A program made the position numbers and the translations under genes. A stretch of DNA of 64,000 nt, taken from Macrolepiota albuminosa (taxonomy: Eukaryota; Basidiomycota; Agaricomycetes; Agaricales; Agaricaceae). Each line of letters opens with the position of its first letter. Within the stretch, counting starts at the first letter, position 1. The stretch is from contig JAMWFC010000113.1 in assembly GCA_027475525.1 (NCBI GenBank), forward strand, positions 2,406,001-2,470,000, read 5' to 3'. The notes beneath the pieces were generated by a model. The model searched no databases. It saw only the letters and a program-made list of their open reading frames with translations, and had not been told where the DNA came from. Shown here one piece after another: positions 20,301 to 32,227 of the stretch.

Positions 20301-21043
20301 GTACCATCGCTACAAAGAGGTGAAGGAGCATGTGGTTGAGCTTTGTGCTATGCAAGCAACCGAGCTGCGACGCAGTCAACGACTGCAGGAGCGGCAAGAG
20401 GGGCGAGACATAGAAGCTGAGCAATTAGAGCAGGCTCAGCCAAAGGAGGCGACAATGCCATGCCAGGACGAGACTGGGAGCAGTTGTGGACCGTATGGCC
20501 ACGACATTACACTCGCTGACGCGTTATCACCTACAGGAGAGTATTGTAACCCCCTTGTTCCTCAAACCAATGAGTACCTCTGGAAGGTACTGAGGGGCTA
20601 TAGCCGCGATGCGTTCTACACAGAAATCCGGCAGAACGCAAATTCCCACCCACGCTTCAGCGTGGATGAAAAAGGACTGGTCCAGTTAACGAATGTTTGA
20701 GGGCACGACGTGGTGTGCTTACCACGCGACCAAACATTAATCACACAGGTCGTCACTCAAGCGCATGACGTTGTTGGTCACTTTGGGACCAACAAAACAC
20801 TGGAATACCTGAGGCAATGGTACTGGTGGCCTCAGATGCAGAAAGAAGTGATGCAGTTCTGCCAGACCTGCGAGGTCTGCCAGCGGTCAAAGACCAGCAA
20901 TAGGAAGCCAGCAGGGAAGTTGCATTCCTTGCCCATTCTGACGAAGCCATGGGACTCCATTGGGATGGACTTTGTTGGTCCATTCCCCGAGTCCAAAGGT
21001 TATAACTACCTTTGGGTGGTTATTTGCCGAATGACTAGTATGG
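17341..21043 (+). pseudogene. Element C pol part 1: protease, RT, RNase H, integrase N-part
   Basis: Continues gag in the same frame. Acidic linker, then aspartic protease (WDSGSTTTG; DSG at 17749-17757), RT with YLDDIFIYSD (YLDD 19411-19422), RNase H (WLICDASKTGVGA, about 19850; ITDHKALEFF, about 20065), integrase zinc finger (HDVVGHFGTNKT, CEVC, about 20760-20880) and the first integrase aspartate (GMDFVGPFPE, about 20965). In-frame TGA at 18088, 18130 and 20698. The 18160-20697 stretch is open for 846 codons, so decay is recent. Cut at 21043 by element D and resumed at 32219; joining the two flanks continues the same integrase motif. Confidence 0.93.
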
Positions 21044-22045
21044 TGATACGACGCTGTACCAGCAGTCAGGGACACACCATGCACCAGAAGTCAAAATAAA
21101 CATTTAAATATGGGCTGAAAACTGTAAGCCTCCTGGTAGCAGTCTCAACAAATAACCATCTCCGAAAACATCCCAACAAATACACAGAAAAGTACAGAAC
21201 AACAGGCAGGAACCAGTTCAAACTATCAGCTCAACAATAGTCTAACCACTGTAATGGGGAGGGGAAGCATGGAAGCTGGCAGAGTGGACGGAATAGGATG
21301 GAATTGGGGAATTATTATTCTCATTCAATATTATAATTCCTCAATTTCATCATCAAATCAGTCAATGTTCGGCAATGGACGGAATAGGATGAAATTGGGA
21401 AATTATTATATTCATTCAATATTATAATTCTCAATTTCATCGTCAAATCAGTCAATGTTCGATTTGACAACAAGGAGGGGAAAAGGAAAGAAGTAGGGGA
21501 TGCAGGGAGGCGCTAAAAGAGGAAAGAAGGATCTATGAAGGAGATCATGCTAAATGGAGCTCAAGCAAATGGGGAAGTGGCAATCCGAAACATCCGGAAG
21601 AATGGCGGAACAAGAAGTTGAATGGTGGAACGGGTGGCACTGAAACAGGCCTCCCAAAAGGGAAATTGGACTATCAAATACATTCTGGAAGTTGGAGAGT
21701 TTCCGACAAAGAGTCATATGTAGATAGTGGTCTGTGCACCAGAAAAACAGTATAAATAGCCCAAGTTTAGTAGAGAATAGACAGGCAATTGATAGGCAAA
21801 GGCTCGGTGATTCCCAGGGAGTGAATCGCTTAGGCCGGAGTTTGTTAAGAAACCTCGACTTGTGGGAATATTATTATTCTCATTCAATATTATAATTCCT
21901 CAAAACCTCGGCGTTTTGCAAAATTATTAAACGCATTCAAGATCATAATTATCTCTTTCACCGTCAAAATCAGTGTGAATTCAAGGTCATATTCTATACT
22001 AGCAAGCCCCAGAACTATCAAGTAATACTTATACCAAGTACTACA
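21044..22045 (+). repeat. 5' LTR of element D
   Basis: 1002 bp, TGATACGACG to AGTACTACA. TATAAATA at 21751-21758. Two imperfect copies of a roughly 91-bp unit (about 21285-21375 and 21376-21468) share AATATTATAATTC; a third partial copy lies near 21866-21902. Matches 31213-32214. Confidence 0.95.
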
Positions 22046-22047
22046 TC

Positions 22048-22065
22048 TGGAGCCCACCGCGAGGG
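22048..22065 (+). promoter_or_regulatory. Primer binding site of element D
   Basis: TGGAGCCCACCGCGAGGG starts 2 nt after the LTR; TGG pairs with the CCA end of a tRNA. Element F has the same first 11 nt at its own LTR edge (minus strand, about 52952). The tRNA species is not identified. Confidence 0.7.
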
Positions 22066-22151
22066 GCTTTGGTTTAGCAAGTGACCAACAAGTTACACCG
22101 ACATCAAGCTCATCATTGTGGACCATCAAGTCCGGTTCACATCAAGTTTAA

Positions 22152-22305
22152 TACAAGATTTCATTTGCACCAAGAGGGTCTACCCCAGAAAGACTAAAGA
22201 GAACCGTGCCTAAGCAACGGGTCAAGACTACAAGATTTCATTTGCACCAAGAGGGTCTACCCCAGAAAGACTAAAGAGAACCGTGCCTAAGCAACGGGTC
22301 AAGAC
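22152..22305. repeat. Exact 77-bp tandem duplication (3 of 8)
   Basis: Copies 22152-22228 and 22229-22305, in the leader between primer site and gag of element D. No effect on the gag frame from ATG 22469. Confidence 0.95.
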
Positions 22306-22468
22306 TACGGAGCACGTCCGCAAGCCCGTAACCCGTAGCATCAAGACCACGACACTCAATAGTGCCAGGGACCCAGAACAGATCTTGAGATCTAGTAGAA
22401 AGCATACATCCAACGATATCAATATTTCAAGTATAAGTACATCAAATACACAAAATCCAACACAAAAT

Positions 22469-23743
22469 ATGCCTGCCGAAATAGTGAGACAAAAGCTGCC
22501 ACTATCAACAAGTCGTGACGCTCCTCGATTCACCCATACACAGCCTACAGAAGTACGGCGTTTCCTTCGAAAGATGGAGAGCCTCTTCAAGGCTGCAGGG
22601 ATCAATGATAACCAGGAACGGAAGGACAAGTTGACGGAATATGTGGACGCTGAGACGGATAGTGAGTGGAGAGGGTTAGATAGCTTTGGGGACGAATCTA
22701 CGTATGACAATTTCGTCAAAGAAATACAAAGTTCTTACCCTGAAGCAATCTCAGATGAGGGAAGCGTGGCAGTGCTTGATCGGATCTGTCGAGAGCACGC
22801 ACGTTTAGGGCAGCATGACACAGAAGAAATTCATGCGCTTGTTCGGAAATTCCGGGCTGAGGCAAAGAAGTTGACAGGGGTGCTAGGGAATGGAGCATTG
22901 GTGGACAAATTTACCAAGTGCTTCACACCAGCATTCCGTGAGCTAATCTTAGCACAAGCCTTGCAAAAGTACGGACATTACAGTGATGTATCTAGGAAAC
23001 GACACAAAGATGACAGATATGATCTAAAGGAAGTTATAAATATCGTGTCTATTTTAGTCGACTCCGGAACATCATTCCGAGATGATGAGGGAACAAAAGA
23101 GAGAGCTCCGGGGGTGATCAAGGTTAAGCAGGAGGTTGACCTGGAGACTGAGGGAAGGTTAGCCAATTTGCAGGATGGAGTCATGGCTCTGGGGAAGGAG
23201 ATGAGCAGTCTGAGGGGGTTCATGCAGACAATGAATAATGAGTGGAAGGCAAAGAGCCAGGTTCCTATGCAGGGAGGACTGCAGACTAGGCTGGGGATGC
23301 CTGCTCAGGCTTTGCAGACTGTTCAGTTTCCAGGAGGCAACAGTTCAGCTGCTGGAATAAATTGTTATCACTGTTGGGAGTTGGGACACAGGACCAATGA
23401 CTGTGAATATCTCAAGACTCAAGTCCAAGAAGGCAAGCTCATCCTCTTTGAAGGCAGGCCTAGGCTACCTTCTGGGGAGCCCATTCCCAGGAGTCCACCT
23501 AATGTGTCTCCCAAAGAGAGGGTCAATGCTATCATGGATCCTAAGGCTGCTGCCTTCTATGGCTGGGTTGAAGAGCCAGTCACTGTTGTGCCTAGTGTGT
23601 CTACATATGTGCAGGCAGTGCCCAAAGAGAAAGAGGATTTAGAGAAGAAGATAGAGGAGCTGCAGAGCTTGGTGGCAAGTCTGATAACTACTAGGAGTCA
23701 GACTTATGAGAAGAACACCCAGCAGAAGCAGGAGGGTTTTTAG
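22469..23743 (+). CDS. Element D gag (capsid/nucleocapsid)
   Basis: 424 residues from the first in-frame ATG (22469; MPAEIVRQKL). The frame is open upstream to about 22283 but without ATG. Seen: capsid-like helical domain (RRFLRKMESLFKAAGI, about 22555-22960), Lys/Gln-rich linker, zinc knuckle C-x2-C-x4-H-x4-C at 23363-23404 (CYHCWELGHRTNDC), then a C-terminal coiled-coil-like stretch (EKEDLEKKIEELQSLV). Stop TAG 23741-23743 directly follows the slippery heptamer at 23734-23740. CpG is common before about 23110 and almost absent after it. Related to F gag (50980-52940). Assembles the particle that packages element RNA (family knowledge). Confidence 0.9.
   Translation: MPAEIVRQKLPLSTSRDAPRFTHTQPTEVRRFLRKMESLFKAAGINDNQERKDKLTEYVDAETDSEWRGLDSFGDESTYDNFVKEIQSSYPEAISDEGSVAVLDRICREHARLGQHDTEEIHALVRKFRAEAKKLTGVLGNGALVDKFTKCFTPAFRELILAQALQKYGHYSDVSRKRHKDDRYDLKEVINIVSILVDSGTSFRDDEGTKERAPGVIKVKQEVDLETEGRLANLQDGVMALGKEMSSLRGFMQTMNNEWKAKSQVPMQGGLQTRLGMPAQALQTVQFPGGNSSAAGINCYHCWELGHRTNDCEYLKTQVQEGKLILFEGRPRLPSGEPIPRSPPNVSPKERVNAIMDPKAAAFYGWVEEPVTVVPSVSTYVQAVPKEKEDLEKKIEELQSLVASLITTRSQTYEKNTQQKQEGF
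23734..23740 (+). promoter_or_regulatory. Predicted -1 frameshift site, gag to protease
   Basis: G GGT TTT in gag phase, immediately before gag TAG. This is a canonical X XXY YYZ heptamer. A -1 slip enters the protease frame, open from 23710. Seven nt downstream CTCAA (23748-23752) can pair with TTGAG (23785-23789), and GGTGG (23757-23761) with CCACC (23800-23804), a possible pseudoknot. Confidence 0.75.
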
Positions 23744-24759
23744 AGAACTCAAGGATGGTGGCAGATGGAAGAGTCCAGCCTGAATTGAGGACACCACTAC
23801 CACCTGAGAGTGATCTAAAAAGGCAAAGGGGAGTTATAGAAGTAGGCAAAGGGAACCTGCCCTTTGAGCAGGTGCCTGCTGTCAATGGAGAGAAAATAGT
23901 AAAATTTCAAAGTGACAAGAAAGAGTTGTATCAGCCCAGAGTATGGCAGAGAAGGGAAGATGAGATTGTCAGCAAAATATTGGACAATGAGGTGACAATT
24001 TCTACAAGGGAATTGTTGAAGGTGCCAGCCTTGCAGGAGGCTCTGGAGAAGACTTGGAGGAGGAGGGAAGGTGCTACCAAGTGGACAGCTGCCAAGGTCT
24101 TTGCACAGGAGGATAGGAGTGCCTCTGTAATGAGCCAGGTCAATATAGATGACTTGCCTCAACCAGGGTACCATATCTCTCAGAGTGAAGAAGAGGGGGT
24201 TCCAAAGGGATCAGTGGTTCATGAGGACTGTGTGGCTACCTTCTTGGAACAGCTTCCACCAGGGGATAGGCCAGAAGTGGTCTATGTGGCCAGAGACTTA
24301 CAAGTGTTGAGGTCTCTGTACCCTAGTGTGAATGACCAAGCTAAGGTGGAGGCTATATTGGACAGTGGGTCTCAGATTGTGTGCATGGCTTTGGACAAGG
24401 CATTAAGTCTGAGATTGACTTGGGATCCTGATATAAGGTTGCGCATGGAGAGTGCCAATCAGCAGGTTAATGAGTCTTTGGGGATGGCCAAGAATGTGCC
24501 CTTCAAGTTTGCTGAGGGTTTCACAATATACTTGCAAGTGCATATATTTGAGAAACCTGCCTATACAGTATTACTGGGGAGGCCATTTGATACAGCCACT
24601 GAGAGTAATGTGCAGAACTTGAAGGATGGTAGTGCAATCATCACTATCAGGGATCCTAATACTGGGAAGAGGACTGCACTGCCAACTTATGAGAGAGGCA
24701 AGGCACCCCCTAGTGGCAACAAGGAGGAGTTGGGAAAAGCTTCAGCCTTGAGGAGTTGA
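23743..24759 (+). CDS. Element D protease ORF
   Basis: Retropepsin-type aspartic protease that cleaves the polyprotein. The frame is open from 23710 to TGA 24757-24759 and lies in the -1 phase of gag; its first ATG is 23755 (334 residues). The N-terminal half is a charged linker; the catalytic motif VEAILDSGSQIV has DSG at 24361-24369; a flap/dimer region follows (AYTVLLGRPFD, about 24560-24590). Expected product is a gag-pro fusion by -1 frameshifting at 23734, with independent start at 23755 as the alternative. The stop overlaps the open pol frame. The same protease is recognisable in F (DSG at 50858-50866, minus). Confidence 0.9.
   Translation, partial: ENSRMVADGRVQPELRTPLPPESDLKRQRGVIEVGKGNLPFEQVPAVNGEKIVKFQSDKKELYQPRVWQRREDEIVSKILDNEVTISTRELLKVPALQEALEKTWRRREGATKWTAAKVFAQEDRSASVMSQVNIDDLPQPGYHISQSEEEGVPKGSVVHEDCVATFLEQLPPGDRPEVVYVARDLQVLRSLYPSVNDQAKVEAILDSGSQIVCMALDKALSLRLTWDPDIRLRMESANQQVNESLGMAKNVPFKFAEGFTIYLQVHIFEKPAYTVLLGRPFDTATESNVQNLKDGSAIITIRDPNTGKRTALPTYERGKAPPSGNKEELGKASALRS
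24732..24738 (+). promoter_or_regulatory. Predicted -1 frameshift site, protease to pol
   Basis: G GGA AAA in protease phase, 18 nt before the protease TGA. Pol is open in the -1 phase from 24714. A stem begins 4-7 nt later: CCTTGA (24746-24751) pairs with TCAAGG (24767-24772), with CAG/CTG outside (24743-24745; 24778-24780). Classic spacing for programmed frameshifting. Confidence 0.78.
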
Positions 24760-27700
24760 TCCCAGATCAAGGAGAGGCTGCAGTGATGATAGAGGGGAGT
24801 GAGGAGGAAGGTTTCTGGATCAAGGGGTACTGTGTCAAGGAGAAGAGTTTTGAGCAGCAAGAACTCAGAGATGTGTACTTGGCTGCTTACCATGCTACTG
24901 GAAGAGAAGGAGAAAGGACAGGGCAGTTGCTGGGAGCTTACCTGAATGGAGAGCTTGGCTACCTACCTGAAGAGTTAAAGAGTGGGGGGGAGAAAAGCCA
25001 GGAGGAAACTGTACAAGTGTTTGGGAAATATAAGCCTGTTGCCAAGAAAGTTAGACCTGTGTTGGGTACTACACCAGAGGAGTTCAGGATAGAAAGGAAT
25101 ATCACTGGGGATCCTTTAAAGGACATGCCACCTTTGAGTCCACATCCACCTGAATTCAGACCTACTGGGAGGTACACAGAGGAGTGCAAGCAGATTATTG
25201 ACCAAGCACATGAAGGGGAGTTTCTGTGGCCAGAAGAGAGAAAGTTACTGCACCAGTTGATGATGCAGCAGAATGAGGCCTTTGCATGGAATGACAGTCA
25301 GAAGGGGAAGTTCAAAGAGGAATACTTCCCACCTGTTGTTATGCCAGTAGTACCTCACCAGCCTTGGGTGTTGAAAAACAGACCCATACCTCCTGGGAAG
25401 TACAATGACCTGTGCAAGGAGATTAAGAGGAAGTTGGAAGCAGGGGTTTATGAGAGGTCAAACTCCTCATATAGATCACAATGGTTTGCTGTTCTGAAGA
25501 AGGATGGGAAAAGTCTGAGGCTTGTGCACAGTTTAGAACCTCTAAACAAAGTCACTATAGCTCATTCTGGAGTACCTCCTGCTACAGAAGAACTGGCCAA
25601 CCACTTTGCTGGAAGAGCATGTGGTGGGATGTGTGATCTCTATGTTGGATATGATGAAAGGACTTTGGACCCTAAGTCTAGGGACTATACTACCTTTCAG
25701 ACACCTTATGGAGCTCTGAGATTGGTGACATTGCCAATGGGATGGACTAATTCAGTTCCCATCTTCCATGATGATGTTACTTATATCTTGCAAGATGAGA
25801 TGCCTCATGTCACTTGGCCTTATATTGATGACGTTCCAATAAGAGGACCTGAGACTAGGTATGAGTTGGAAGGAGGAGGGTATGAGACTATTGCAGAGAA
25901 TCAAGGGATTAGGCGCTTTGTATGGGAGCACCTGAACAATGTCAATAGAGTTGTTCAGCGCATCAAGTATGCTGGAGGAACCTTCTCAGGGACTAAGTCT
26001 GTGCTATGTGCAGATGAAATCACTGTAGTGGGTCACTTGTGTTCTTATGAGGGGCGCAAGCCAGAGACAAAGAGATATGCAGTGGTCATGAGTTGGGGAG
26101 ACTGCCGCAATGTCTCTGAGGTTAGGAAGTTCTTGGGAACTTGTGGTACCTTCAGAATGTTCATCCAGGACTATGCCAAGATCTCAGAGCCTATCAATAG
26201 GCTCACTAAGGATGATGTGGCTTTTGTCTGGGAGGAAGAACAGAAGGAGGCCATGAGGGAGATGAAGAGGAGGTTAGCAAGTTGTGCAGCGATGTGGCTT
26301 TTGTCTGGGAGGAAGAACAGAAGGAGGCCATGAGGGAGATGAAGAGGAGGTTAGCAAGTTGTGCAGCTCTAAGACCTATAGACTATGAGTCTGAAGGAGC
26401 TGTCATCTTGGCAGTAGACACTTCTTGGATGGCTGTTGGGTTTGGGATCTTCCAAGAGGACAGTACAAATCCAAAACAGAGGACTTGTGCTAGACTGGGG
26501 TCCATTACCTTGAATGAGAGGGAGGCTAGGTTTTCACAACCTAAGAGAGAGTTGTATGGTCTTATGAGGGCATTACAAGTTAGCAGCTATTGGTTACTAG
26601 GGTGCAGAAAGCTTATCATTGAGAGTGATGCTAAATACCTCAAGGGCATGCTGAGCAACCCAGGAATAGGACCTAATGCTACTATAATGCGCTGGGTGGA
26701 AGCTGTACTTATGTACCACTTCACCTTGAGGCATGTGCCAGGGAAGACTTTCAGTATGGATGGTCTATCTCGCAGAGAGAAGCAACCAGGAGATGAAGAG
26801 TATCCTCCTGTGGACCCATCTTTACTGGATGATCCAAAGCCAATGTCCTTTGAGTATCCAGATGAGATCAACAGAGTACCTGGTTGGGAGGAACATGTGC
26901 CCCTCAAGTTAGAAGACTTCATGGATGAGATTGATACAAGAGGAGGCTACTTGCTAGCTGTCACTCCAGAAGATGTACAGGAAGAAGTAGAGATGGGTAG
27001 AGACAGGGAGCAAGGCCTAGCCTTGGGCTTACAAGAGCAAAGCACTAAAGTAGGGACTACACTGAATCCAGTAGCAGTCTTGACTTTATCTACACTCTTG
27101 TTGCCAGAAAGGCCCTCTGCCTCTACTGTGGAAGAGTACCAGGAAGAGAGGAGAACTGAGAAGGGGAAATCCTTGGACAACCTCTTACCACTAGTACAGG
27201 ACTGGCTTAGGCATCCTGGAAAGGTACCCAGAGAGGTGAAAGAGGGACAATTTCTTAAGTTTGCAAGACAGTTCTTCTTTGATCTCAAGGGAAGGTTTTA
27301 CAAGAGAGGAGAAGAGGGGAAGCACAAGCTAGTCATAGAGAAGGACAGGAGGATGTATATGCTAAAGTCTGCTCATGATGCACTTGGTCACAGAGGGACT
27401 TTTGCAACTAAGGCTTTACTGGAGGAGAGGTTTTGGTGGCCAGAAATGGAAGCTGATGTAAAGTGGTATATAGACACTTGTCATGCTTGCCAAGTAAGGC
27501 AGAAAGTTGCAGTGTGCAGGCAGCCTGTGGTAGCCTACACTCCCAGTATATTTGAAACCATACACTTGGATACCATGCACATGACACCAAGTTCAAATGG
27601 GTGCAAGTATATTGTACATGGGAGGTGCGCTTTAACCTCATGGATGGAGGGTAGACCTTTGAAGAAGGATAACCACAAGTTGATTGGGCAGTGGTTGTTT

Positions 27701-28567
27701 GAAGAAGTGATCTGTAGATGGGGCTGTATAAGCACCATTGTAACAGATAATGCTGGGCAGTTCACAAAAGTGGTACATTGGCTATCTAAGAAGTATGGGA
27801 TACAGGGCATAACTATTGCTCCCTATAATTCTAGAGCTAATGGGAGGATAGAGAGACCACATTGGGATGTGAGGCAGGCCTTGTATAAAGCCTGTGAAGA
27901 CAGAACCAAGTGGTACTGGTTCTTTTGGCATGTAATGTGGGCAGACAGGATTACAGTTAGGAAGAGATTTGGGTGTTCCCCATTCTTCTTAGTAACTGGA
28001 GCACATCCTATACTACCCTTGGACTTAGTGGAAGCCACTTGGTTGGTAGACTGGCCTGATGGACCAGTATCTACAGAAGACTTAATTGGCTTAAGAGCTC
28101 AAGCACTGGCAAAGCACTACCAGCATGTGGAAGACATGAGGACTAGGGTCAGCAAGGAGAAGTTGAGATGGGCAGAGAACTTCACAAGGGAAAATGAAGC
28201 CTCTATCAAGGAGTACAAGTTCAAACCAAGAGACTTAGTACTGGTTAGAAACATAGTGGCAGCTAAATCTCTAAGTGGGAAAATGTCTGCGCGCTATTGG
28301 GGACCTATGGTGGTGTTGACTAGGACTAAGGGAGGCAACTATATAGTGGCAGAGTTGGATGGTACTGTATGGCAAGAAAGAGTAGCTGCCTTTAGGGTTA
28401 TACCTTACAAGGCTAGGCAGCAAATCACTCTGCCTACTAGTATAGAGGAATGGATTGATATTACTCCTTCTAAGCTACAAGAGCTAAGAGAAGAGAAGAA
28501 TGAGGGACAAGTAGAGGAAGACCTCTACCTCCGGGGGGTACATCTAGGAGAGGAACAGGAAGAGTAA
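24739..28567 (+). CDS. Element D pol: RT, RNase H, integrase
   Basis: Long pol frame, in the -1 phase of the protease. Without the 77-bp duplication at 26214 it is one frame of about 1,244 codons counted from 24756. RT: SNSSYRSQWF (about 25457), catalytic YIDD at 25821-25832. RNase H: ILAVDTSWMAVGF (about 26407), ESDAKYLKGML (about 26622), ending near VPGKTFSMDGLSR. Integrase: HHCC finger (HDALGHRGTF, CHAC; about 27375-27490), DDE in HLDTMHM (about 27565), VTDNAGQF (about 27742), RANGRIERPHWDV (about 27835). C-terminal part GPMVVLTRTKGGNYIV. No premature stop other than the duplication effect. The sequence is almost free of CpG although the frame is intact. Confidence 0.93.
26214..26367. repeat. 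Exact 77-bp tandem duplication (4 of 8)
   Basis: Copies 26214-26290 and 26291-26367 in RNase H of element D. It splits pol into two overlapping frames differing by exactly the shift a 77-bp insert causes; the rest of the frame is clean. Confidence 0.97.
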
Positions 28568-29732
28568 CTCAGTCTGCCCTGGTCACTAGAGCTCTGGGGT
28601 AGCTGGTAAAAAGGAGGGACAGCTAGTGGCATTGTGTGCTAGCTACCACAATGGCTACAACTAAGCTACCAAGGTCTTAAGGAGGGTCTGAGGAGAGAGA
28701 AAGATCAGGGATACAAGAAGAGGCACAACGGCGTGTCACCACGTTGCTGAGGAGCGCAAATATTCTCAAGCACGTGGTCACACGTGCTAGTCACGTTGAT
28801 GTCAGCCTGGACGCCTGCCTTGGTAATCAAATCGTCGGTGCACCTGCTTATGTAACGTTGTCACACGTAACTAAGCACGTGTTCACGTCAGCAATTGCAC
28901 GCGTCGACTGCGAATATGATCGTCGATATATTGAGCATGTTTGTACTGGGTCTGACAGAGCGGAACTCTTAAAGTACAGAAAAGCAGGGCAAGAAATCTA
29001 TTAGACGACCTATGAGACAAGATTTGGTGGCTACGGCGTGGTACAAAGAGTGGGGATTTAGGCACAACAAGGGTGCCGGGACAGAGTCAAACGCGCGGTC
29101 GGTCAGACCAAGCGGTCGTCCAAGCACGAAAAGAAGTAAAAGTCAGAAGTGGCCGTGCGTGGAGACGTCGCAAAGGGACGCACAGGGATAAGAATGGGTG
29201 CAGGAGACGGGAAAAAGTTCTGAGACAGCCATGGTGTCTCAGGCGCGTCCGAATACTGTAAATAGAGTAAAAAGTTCCGTCGTTCCGCGTGATCGGAAAG
29301 GTGATGTGAAAAGGATGGTGAGGTGGATAGAGAGTTACGAAGGAGGAGTAACGAGCTGGCCGGAAGAAAAACTGCGAGTGAGTGTGGGAGGCAGAGAGTA
29401 AGGGCAAAGACGCACCAAAAGACAGTGCGGGGAATACAAGGAGTTTACCCCACACGATCGGACAAATGAGGAAGCGAGTAGTGGGGATCACGGTCCGAGG
29501 TGGGAACCGAGAAGAAGCAGTCAGTTCCAGAGGATCGGAACAACGGAAAGGAGTTGAGGCGAAAAGGAGTAATGGAAGGCTCGGATCAGCGGATCAGCAG
29601 GGCTGATCATGATCAATCAAGAAGCCTTGCGTCACTCATACGTCACGCAAATTAAAGACGTCGAATGCAAGTTTATTGCGCGCAGAAACTAAGTCTATTG
29701 GGCTACGGAATAGTAACAAAAATACGTTGTAA
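28568..29732. other. Spacer between pol and the antisense gene of D
   Basis: About 1.2 kb where two convergent transcription units would end. CpG-rich, no supported gene; open frames on both strands lack recognisable content. Three CACGTG palindromes (28771, 28781, 28876) and several more ACGT cores cluster in 28738-28890. Confidence 0.55.
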
Positions 29733-31001
29733 CTATAAGGTAGCCTCAATAGCACTGTCTACTGCGTCCGCTTTGGGATCCGGCCCAGGGATCTCAACAT
29801 CCGGGCTTTCGACGGCTGTCTGAGAAGAACAGAGAAAATGAGTACGAAATCGGAGCAGAATAAGCTGAAGAAACGAACCGACTTAGAAGGGGATCCGACT
29901 TGGAGCTCTCCGATACGGATCTCCGTATCGGAAAGAGCCTGCTTGTCGAGAGCAGTTCGGACAGCTTCACGGCGCGCAATAAGTTGCTTGCAACGTTGCT
30001 GGGCCATGTCCAGCGCAAAAAGCTGTTGGCAAGCGGTCTGGTCGAGTTCCTGGAGGTAGTCTCGGAGGGTAGCACGTGAGACCTTGCCGTCCTTGGCAAG
30101 GATGCGGTCGGTCTCGTCAAGAAGCGCTTGTGCGCAAGAGCCGTCAGGTCGATAAGAAGCTGAGGGGAAAATTTAAAGTGGAGTTATGTAATAAGGAGAA
30201 AAGGAACGCACCGACAGAGGGTTGAACGCGAGGCCTCTTGGCGTCGGGTGCGGCCTCAGGTGGGGGCTGGAGAGAGAGCGAAAAATGCGCAAAACGCATA
30301 AATAATTCGTCGATTTGTATTTCTAGAAATAGAAAACAAGCTCACGTCGTTAGTCTTGCGCTTGGCAGGACGAGGGGATGACACACTCATCATTTCCACG
30401 TCGCTGTCACGCTCTTGGCGGCGGTCACGGGCACGACGAGCCTCATCACGGCGGCGGGTCTGGAAAGGAAGGGAGAAATTAGAAAAGAAGTGGATGGGGG
30501 AAAAATGCAAAGAGTGACCTCAGCGCGCTCTTTAGCAGCAGCTTGTTTGGCAGCTTCTTCGGCACGCTTGTCATTGATTAATTTCAAGATGCTGTCAGCA
30601 AAAATACACCAGTTTTTGAGGTTGGAAGAGGTCTGGAGGAGGCGACGCTCGATGCGGTCCTGGACTTTATAGAGAACATCATAAAGGCCACACTGCTCGG
30701 CAATGGCAGGGAAGTCCGAGTGATCAATGAAGATCTGGGGACAATGTGCAAAAGGTTAAACTTAGAACAAGAGCCAAAATTAGACATGACACACAAGTTC
30801 GGCAGCTCCGAGATGCCGGGACACGAGGGTAGAGGACTCTTTTGCAAGAGCTTCCTCACAAAGGCGGGTGACAGCAGTGCCAAAAGCAGCAATATGCTTG
30901 ACGGACTTGATTTGTTGATCCTTATCACGGATAATGGCATTCTCAAGGAGAGAGTAGGGGTCGGTACCAAGGGATCTTTTGGGACCAGTAGGAGGAGCCA
31001 T
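29733..31001 (-). CDS. Antisense six-exon gene of element D, intact
   Basis: Spliced ORF opposite to gag-pol: exons 31001-30795, 30734-30519, 30459-30346, 30266-30212, 30159-29900, 29819-29733, giving 939 nt and 312 residues. All five introns are GT-AG (52-80 bp) and all junctions keep frame. Starts MAPPTGPKRSLGTDPYSLL. Contents: helical N-terminal part, a basic Ala/Lys/Arg stretch (AAKQAAAKERAE), a basic segment with a nuclear-signal-like PAKRK, an acidic-helical part rich in Gln/Arg/Glu (ETDRILAKDG, AQQRCKQLIARRE), acidic tail. No cysteine cluster as in A and F. ATG is 211 nt from the LTR; TTTAAA lies about 42 nt upstream. Likely nuclear; function unknown. CpG-rich, unlike pol. Confidence 0.8.
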
Positions 31002-31178
31002 GGGGGATGGTGAACTAGGGATGTAGGGGATGATAGGAGGGGTTTAAATGGCCTTTGAGGCGACAGGGAGGACGGCAAAAACATGCAAAAGAAACCTACA
31101 AACCTTGCAGGAGGGCTGGACAAAAATTTTGATATGATGGCAGAGAAATGGAACTTGACCTAATCTGGAACTGTGAAT

Positions 31179-31212
31179 GACTGAGGACAGTCTTTATTTG
31201 GTGGGGGGGAGA
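31179..31212 (+). promoter_or_regulatory. AGGA-loop hairpin plus polypurine tract of element D
   Basis: GACTG-AGGA-CAGTC (31179-31192) followed by the purine tract GGTGGGGGGGAGA ending at 31212 against the LTR. Same arrangement as in A and F. Confidence 0.8.
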
Positions 31213-32214
31213 TGATACGACGCTGTACCAGCAGTCAGGGACACACCATGCACCAGAAGTCAAAATAAACATTTAAATATGGGCTGAAAACTGTAAGCCT
31301 CCTGGTAGCAGTCTCAACAAATAACCATCTCCGAAAACATCCCAACAAATACACAGAAAAGTACAGAACAACAGGCAGGAACCAGTTCAAACTATCAGCT
31401 CAACAATAGTCTAACCACTGTAATGGGGAGGGGAAGCATGGAAGCTGGCAGAGTGGACGGAATAGGATGGAATTGGGGAATTATTATTCTCATTCAATAT
31501 TATAATTCCTCAATTTCATCATCAAATCAGTCAATGTTCGGCAATGGACGGAATAGGATGAAATTGGGAAATTATTATATTCATTCAATATTATAATTCT
31601 CAATTTCATCGTCAAATCAGTCAATGTTCGATTTGACAACAAGGAGGGGAAAAGGAAAGAAGTAGGGGATGCAGGGAGGCGCTAAAAGAGGAAAGAAGGA
31701 TCTATGAAGGAGATCATGCTAAATGGAGCTCAAGCAAATGGGGAAGTGGCAATCCGAAACATCCGGAAGAATGGCGGAACAAGAAGTTGAATGGTGGAAC
31801 GGGTGGCACTGAAACAGGCCTCCCAAAAGGGAAATTGGACTATCAAATACATTCTGGAAGTTGGAGAGTTTCCGACAAAGAGTCATATGTAGATAGTGGT
31901 CTGTGCACCAGAAAAACAGTATAAATAGCCCAAGTTTAGTAGAGAATAGACAGGCAATTGATAGGCAAAGGCTCGGTGATTCCCAGGGAGTGAATCGCTT
32001 AGGCCGGAGTTTGTTAAGAAACCTCGACTTGTGGGAATATTATTATTCTCATTCAATATTATAATTCCTCAAAACCTCGGCGTTTTGCAAAATTATTAAA
32101 CGCATTCAAGATCATAATTATCTCTTTCACCGTCAAAATCAGTGTGAATTCAAGGTCATATTCTATACTAGCAAGCCCCAGAACTATCAAGTAATACTTA
32201 TACCAAGTACTACA
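31213..32214 (+). repeat. 3' LTR of element D
   Basis: 1002 bp, aligned with the 5' LTR at a constant offset of 10169, with no gap. Ends TACTACA; ATGG follows as target duplication. TATA box at 31920-31927. Confidence 0.95.
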
Positions 32215-32227
32215 ATGGTGCACCTGA

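Follow-up and report, generated by a model that had tools for sequence, protein, structure and literature searches.

Three successive −1 phases of gag, pro and pol in a fungal Ty3/Gypsy-type retrotransposon, a candidate for double ribosomal frameshifting

Two −1 ribosomal frameshifts are used by some retroviruses, and the passages of PMC5009743 that treat the subject name no retrotransposon with two. A double frameshift for the expression of pro and pol has been described for all betaretroviruses studied and for four deltaretroviruses (PMC3835772); the first-pass annotation of the DNA considered here had called such double shifting typical of these two groups. Elements of the Metaviridae have one, two or three genes (gag, pol, env) with the protease inside pol (PMC7879559). 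In a Gypsy element of Paracoccidioides, pol lies −1 to gag, a single step (PMC4427930), and frameshifts go unmentioned in the excerpt of PMC2577118. Here we analyze element D, a Ty3/Gypsy-type long terminal repeat (LTR) retrotransposon that has identical LTRs and covers 21044-32214 (plus strand) of a 64,000-nucleotide (nt) stretch of Macrolepiota albuminosa contig JAMWFC010000113.1 (assembly GCA_027475525.1, positions 2,406,001 to 2,470,000), hereafter the window. Its gag, pro and pol lie in three successive phases, and we consider it likely from the sequence that they are expressed by two successive programmed −1 ribosomal frameshifts. The first-pass annotation knew of no fungal Gypsy element with such double shifting, and no fungal element with two −1 shifts was found in the literature searched, as represented by titles and abstract openings.

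D shares with the beta- and deltaretroviruses the order of gag, pro and pol in three successive −1 phases and a slippery site before each step. Unlike them, it is a fungal LTR element and not a vertebrate retrovirus, and its gag stop touches the first heptamer. A compact gag-pro pseudoknot has been described for betaretroviruses, whereas in D such a structure is unsupported at the first site and a structure has some support at the pro-pol step. The fungal Ty3/Gypsy elements with a single −1 step resemble D in their LTRs, CCHC-like gag, aspartyl protease, order of reverse transcriptase (RT), RNase H and integrase, and possession of a −1 step. D has the paired LTRs and the target-site duplication of Ty3/Gypsy (Metaviridae) elements; unlike in these, where the protease is described as lying within pol (PMC7879559), its protease occupies a middle frame of its own. 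The protease and pol of D are homologous to those of fused gag-pro basidiomycete elements (a third family of this genome, loci L051 and L072, and DUF4100-type proteins), which differ in having gag-pro as one frame of 881 amino acids (aa) and, in L051, one shift rather than two. D is best read as representing a fungal Ty3/Gypsy lineage that would have come to use two successive −1 frameshifts separately from the beta- and deltaretroviruses.

Reading frames and slippery sites of element D

From stop to stop, the gag frame covers 22214-23743 (ATG at 22469), the pro frame covers 23710-24759, and the pol frame opens at 24714. Their start coordinates modulo 3 are 2, 1 and 0, every frame being −1 relative to the preceding one. 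Slippery heptamer 1, GGGTTTT (23734-23740, plus strand), reads G GGT TTT in gag phase and abuts the gag stop TAG (23741-23743) immediately 3′ of it. Heptamer 2, GGGAAAA (24732-24738, plus strand), reads G GGA AAA in pro phase and lies 18 nt before the pro stop TGA (24757-24759). The coordinates and sequence confirm the arrangement put forward in the first-pass annotation, that is, three successive −1 phases with an in-phase heptamer in both overlaps. When a strict in-phase heptamer is defined as one in which YYY is AAA or TTT and the last base is not G, a single one is found at the 1,946 codon positions of D outside the overlaps, and one is found in each of the overlaps, which comprise 10 and 14 positions. 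Because codon-shuffled sequence gives rates of 0.0017-0.0020, about 0.02 and 0.03 heptamers are expected in the two overlaps, a joint chance of about 1 in 2,000.

Under the proposed mechanism, gag, pro and pol would all be expressed from one RNA through the two successive shifts. Most ribosomes would terminate at the gag stop and release Gag. A fraction would slip by −1 on G GGU UUU, where the stop codon comes next, and produce Gag-Pro; part of this fraction would slip by −1 a second time, on G GGA AAA and with the aid of a compact RNA structure of two stems that begins 5 nt further on, and produce Gag-Pro-Pol. That ribosomes do slip at both sites is our inference, as are the order and ratios of the products and the stimulation by the stop codon and the RNA structure. 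G_GGU_UUU belongs to the heptamers on which mammalian ribosomes shift most readily, G_GAU_UUU with a stop close by occurs naturally as a viral site, and at the G_GAU_UUU site of pea enation mosaic virus a change of the nearby stop to a sense codon led to less shifting (PMC5009743). By analogy, the stop codon adjoining heptamer 1 may stimulate the slip in D.

Copies and related families in the genome

The genome (100 Mb, 129 contigs) was searched at the DNA level with the query 23380-25040, which gave 50 matches (best 40 scored of 115 candidates); the copy set comprises 41 loci at 40 distinct places, as L032 and L049 overlap. Of the 41 loci, 40 have an intact heptamer 1 plus stop (GGGTTTTTAG), as do 39 of the 40 distinct places, the sole exception being L046 with GGATTTT. 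Site 2 is covered by 38 loci, each of which keeps heptamer 2 (TTGGGAAAAGCTTC); L041, L048 and L049 stop short of it. The distance between the heptamers, measured in 37 loci, is 998 nt in 29 and exactly 77 nt more in five. A whole-genome scan for a 26-nt site-1 pattern with up to three mismatches gave 51 places, 45 of them exact, against none for a reversed control, and heptamer 1 is kept at 49 of the 51. A pro frame of 349-350 aa with the standard end is present in 27 of the 41 loci, and 12 of the 41 combine a gag of at least 495 aa, a pro of standard length and a pol that stays open as far as the fetched sequence goes; the remaining copies are decayed, truncated or carry 77-nt duplicates. We also searched the genome with the protease and no length filter (119 matches listed, best 116 of 1,021 candidates scored). 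The complete matches belonging to D and to a second family have frames of about 350 aa and none longer than 428 aa; gag and pro are therefore unfused in those matches. The first-pass annotation had named unconserved heptamers, or a single phase in most copies, as signs that the shifts are not genuine; this was checked across the copies and the three-phase plan held.

Six copies (L024, L031, L042, L044, L046 and L047) are mosaic: their gag side is 79-87% identical to D and the next part 92-98%, as if templates had switched in late gag or early pro.

Substitutions were compared between the window and 39 copies (L009, which is the window itself, and L049 were left out, and aligned pieces below 80% identity were dropped). 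At codon positions 1, 2 and 3 of each part's own phase, the variable columns number 103, 93 and 262 in gag, 49, 28 and 108 in pro, and 55, 26 and 102 in pol. Heptamer 1 and its stop contain one variable column, in one copy, and heptamer 2 contains none. In our judgment, such periodicity is not produced by mutations or assembly errors in single copies, and the three-phase plan is real, maintained and common to two families. That the phase changes are mutations or assembly errors is accordingly hardly credible, even though exact 77-nt tandem copies do break frames in the assembly, including the pol of this copy (26214-26367): many copies and the second family have one and the same phase relation, the substitution periodicity of each part agrees with it, and both overlaps in the window are free of 77-nt copies.

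The window contains eight exact tandem duplications, at 2385, 7111, 22152, 26214, 32228, 32634, 34290 and 47639, and none of any period from 20 to 199 other than 77. In 48 fetched loci of at least 3 kb, some of which cover the window's own copy, there are 22 duplications of period 77 and one of period 78. Since all eight in the window share the period of 77, we take these copies for assembly artefacts; they look like unmerged k=77 assembly overlaps that falsely break frames, and they may affect other findings in the window.

The second family is about 71% identical to D in pol and 57-60% in pro in protein searches. In its copy L050, gag ends in G GAT TTT TGA, pro follows at −1 with 350 aa, and pol is at −1 again. 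The site-1 stretch is GGATTTTTGAGGAGCTC in nine of ten further copies, the tenth, L054, having unrelated sequence; genome-wide, the 23-nt site-1 pattern of this family occurs at 45 places, 44 of them exact (control, one). Its pro frames are 350 or 353 aa long in 28 of the 29 stop-free matches spanning residue 43-47 to 340, and 343 aa in one (hand count). The site-2 stretch is GCAAAATTTT in all ten further copies, followed by GAG in eight and AAG in two, so the pro stop is TGA or TAA. The overlap of pro and pol is 13 nt only. D and its copies have an in-phase slippery heptamer at both of their −1 steps, and the second family has a recognised heptamer at site 1 only. Its best pro/pol candidate is A AAA TTT, which gives perfect re-pairing in the P site only.

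The string GCA AAA TTT TGA stands at L050:1468-1482 and in copies, though the downstream RNA structure is kept. EAKF near the C-terminus is also seen in one Tephrocybe and one Tricholoma pro protein (P0002, P0004).

Site 1 of the two families also bears on splicing, which could join the frames and make recoding unneeded. TTTTTAG at site 1 of D resembles a splice acceptor, but the second family has TTTTTGAG at this position; no GT[AG]NGT donor occurs in 23600-23900 or 24600-24900 (more distant donors were not sought), and a spliced RNA would not carry the whole element. We regard splicing as very improbable.

In the third family (L051/L072), which is about 59% identical in pol, gag and pro form the single 881-aa frame, and pol of L051 is at −1 to it, i.e., a single step. 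At the gag-pro/pol step, GAGTGTTTTCC is common to six of six copies; no standard heptamer was found there by eye, and G TGT TTT is present at L051:1472-1478 and in six of six copies. In the protease search of this genome (119 listed, best 116 of 1,021 candidates), the frames of 716-882 aa all come from matches of about 43% identity.

RNA structure and weighing of the two-shift reading

A two-stem RNA structure of 12 pairs is predicted at 24744-24779 (plus strand), beginning 5 nt past heptamer 2 in D. After site 2, the predicted folds of D and of the second family share this two-stem form, and all 12 pairs are present in both families: three are changed on both sides, three on one side, six are unchanged and none is broken. 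The pairs are kept in 35 of 38 D loci. The comparison was made with random synonymous coding because the structured stretch encodes a conserved peptide; of 200,000 draws made for each family, such recoding leaves all 12 pairs intact in 0.54% for D and 0.32% for the second family. We consider that the two-stem structure has some support, with compensatory changes between the families. The first-pass annotation had placed another stem here, CCTTGA/TCAAGG. Its sequences exist, and it was set aside for the 12-pair structure as two of its six pairs fail in the second family (hand count).

Several observations weigh against the two-shift reading, which, by far the best as it is, has been drawn from sequence. 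The breakpoint fit of the substitution data is coarse: its optima, 23915-23925 and 24904-24905, fall 170-190 nt beyond the respective sites, which are barely inside the 2-log-unit intervals of 23690-23934 and 24730-24908. We therefore make no claim that the phase switch sits exactly at the heptamers. The second family has no standard heptamer at its pro/pol site, where A AAA TTT or A GCA AAA is found by eye. Three of 38 D loci break one of the 12 pairs of the site-2 structure, leaving 11, and the variation is informative for this structure in two families only. Its energy is modest, with z of +0.26 (D) and −1.39 (second family) in dinucleotide shuffles of 90 nt; the share of 36-nt synonymous recodings with an energy as low is 0.06 (D) and 0.005-0.011 (second family). 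In D, the signal is gone in longer stretches, and other 60-nt windows of D reach z of −3.2. After site 1, neither family has folds of 48-90 nt that outdo synonymous-codon recodings. Finally, an in-phase AUG at a fixed place past site 1 is compatible with reinitiation.

The outcome at site 1 depends on the control, since dinucleotide shuffles and synonymous recodings disagree: in the former, z is −2.2 for D, a value that 5 of 200 shuffles equal or undercut, and −1.4 for the second family. The stem CTCAA/TTGAG and the GGTGG/CCACC pseudoknot assigned to site 1 in the first-pass annotation exist as sequences, but their role is unsupported, as the folds do not surpass those of synonymous recodings. 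GGAGCT/AGCTCC is present in nine of nine matching second-family site-1 stretches, and the arm of a possible CAATG/CATTG pseudoknot is absent from one second-family subtype (both by eye).

It could be argued from the AUG just past the gag stop that ribosomes pass from gag to pro by termination and reinitiation, giving a separate Pro, and that only the step from pro to pol is a frameshift. The first pro-phase ATG (23755-23757 in the window) lies 21 nt from where heptamer 1 begins in every one of the 40 loci that have the site and 18 nt in L050, and the relatives P0020, P0025, P0081 and P0113 begin with [LM]SSM[MI]AATRS. However, reinitiation accounts neither for the G GGT TTT or G GAT TTT that immediately precedes the gag stop in the two families nor for the GF or DF ending of 10 of 24 gag relatives; moreover, Pro made apart from Gag would need its own route into particles. 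We therefore hold reinitiation to be unlikely and prefer two successive frameshifts.

Anatomy of the element, its relatives and the meaning of the plan

Element D is a young Ty3/Gypsy-type LTR retrotransposon. Its 5′ LTR (21044-22045) and 3′ LTR (31213-32214), both on the plus strand, are 1,002 nt long and 100% identical; the ends of the 5′ LTR read TG...CA. A 4-bp target-site duplication, ATGG, abuts both LTRs (21040-21043 and 32215-32218). D is nested in the integrase part of another Gypsy-like element, whose frame is broken at 21040 and resumes after 32214 (by eye). A putative primer-binding-site-like stretch that starts with TGG (22048-22066, plus strand) lies 2 nt past the 5′ LTR, and a putative polypurine-tract-like stretch containing one T (31200-31212, plus strand) adjoins the 3′ LTR; both are assigned by position only.

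The open gag frame (22469-23743, plus strand) runs from ATG to TAG, contains a CCHC-like knuckle (zf-CCHC match with E of 0.27, below the cut-off) and ends in QEGF. The 349-aa pro frame (23710-24759, plus strand) encodes an aspartyl protease with DSG and LLGRPF (Asp_protease_2, E of 2.9e-5). Pol (24714-28567, plus strand) shows by profile matches the order of RT, RNase H and integrase found in Ty3/Gypsy (Metaviridae): RVT_1 with E of 9.7e-5 (22.6 bits, under the 29.6 cut-off), RNase H with E of 1.8e-9 and Integrase_H2C2 with E of 2.2e-18. It is interrupted by the exact 77-nt tandem duplication judged an artefact above (plus strand); in other copies the pol frame stays open over about 1,258 aa. 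The region from pol to the 3′ LTR (28568-31212, about 2.6 kb) contains several minus-strand frames. No Pfam match over the cut-off was obtained in four minus-strand frames after pol, where env was sought; plus-strand frames there were not scanned. The part at 29000-31000 is common to many copies but more diverged than the coding part, with 68-96% identity outside the window.

The closest relative of D gag is a protein from Termitomyces sp. 'cryptogamus', with 85% identity over the full length; on this ground we take the host to be an agaric related to Termitomyces and the Lyophyllaceae. The gag search gave 24 proteins, of which 10 end exactly in GF or DF and several others are partial or end elsewhere. 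GF is what G GGT TTT encodes and DF is what G GAT TTT encodes, an indirect sign, the codons of the relatives being unreadable from proteins. Two gene models, P0125 and P0137, continue from gag into pro. Of the 291 proteins from the pro search, 120 were listed; the length filter of this search excludes fused gag-pro proteins, and the list alone therefore cannot show that the split is universal. Eight of those listed are named (Termitomyces, Tephrocybe, Arthromyces, Tricholoma), the first three genera belonging to the Lyophyllaceae. The other 112 are unnamed, from sources such as ena and jgi, and were taken for metagenome proteins; 100 of the 112 measure 365-400 aa, i.e., a protease without gag or RT. 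DF stands at most 10 residues from the end in 106 of the 120 listed, many of them near kin.

The search with the fused protein, with scoring confined to the 7,994 candidates that had most words in common, gave 232 proteins, 120 of them listed. Postia, Mycena, Galerina, Trametes and Lyophyllum are among the matches listed. A loose CCHC pattern is present in 91 of the 120, and their C-termini are DF in 34, GF in 18, another residue before F in 52 and without F near the end in 16. In a protease tree of 27 of the 120 listed split proteins, 41 of the 120 listed fused proteins and three sequences of this genome, one branch parts 29 split from 42 fused rows with a Shimodaira-Hasegawa-like approximate likelihood ratio test (SH-aLRT) value of 99. 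We place little weight on this branch because the differing length filters of the two protein searches themselves favour it. A scan of IMG/VR for pol relatives confirmed none.

Beyond element D, we lean towards the view that a whole lineage of basidiomycete Ty3/Gypsy elements, present in the Lyophyllaceae and their kin and in many unnamed sources, shares the two-shift, three-frame plan. The plan would have had a single origin, from or beside one-shift elements with fused gag-pro and separately from the beta- and deltaretroviruses, and would serve to keep protease below Gag in amount; the second family would have moved its second slip to the non-standard A AAA UUU, dependent on the conserved RNA structure.

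Annotation that expects the protease inside pol would split or mis-join such elements, of which P0125 and P0137 seem to be examples. As related one-step and two-step families are present in the same genome, the change from one to two steps can be studied directly. If slippage is confirmed, the double −1 plan of some retroviruses would have evolved a second time, in fungal retrotransposons, which would suggest that separate dosing of the protease relative to Gag and the polymerase is repeatedly favoured.

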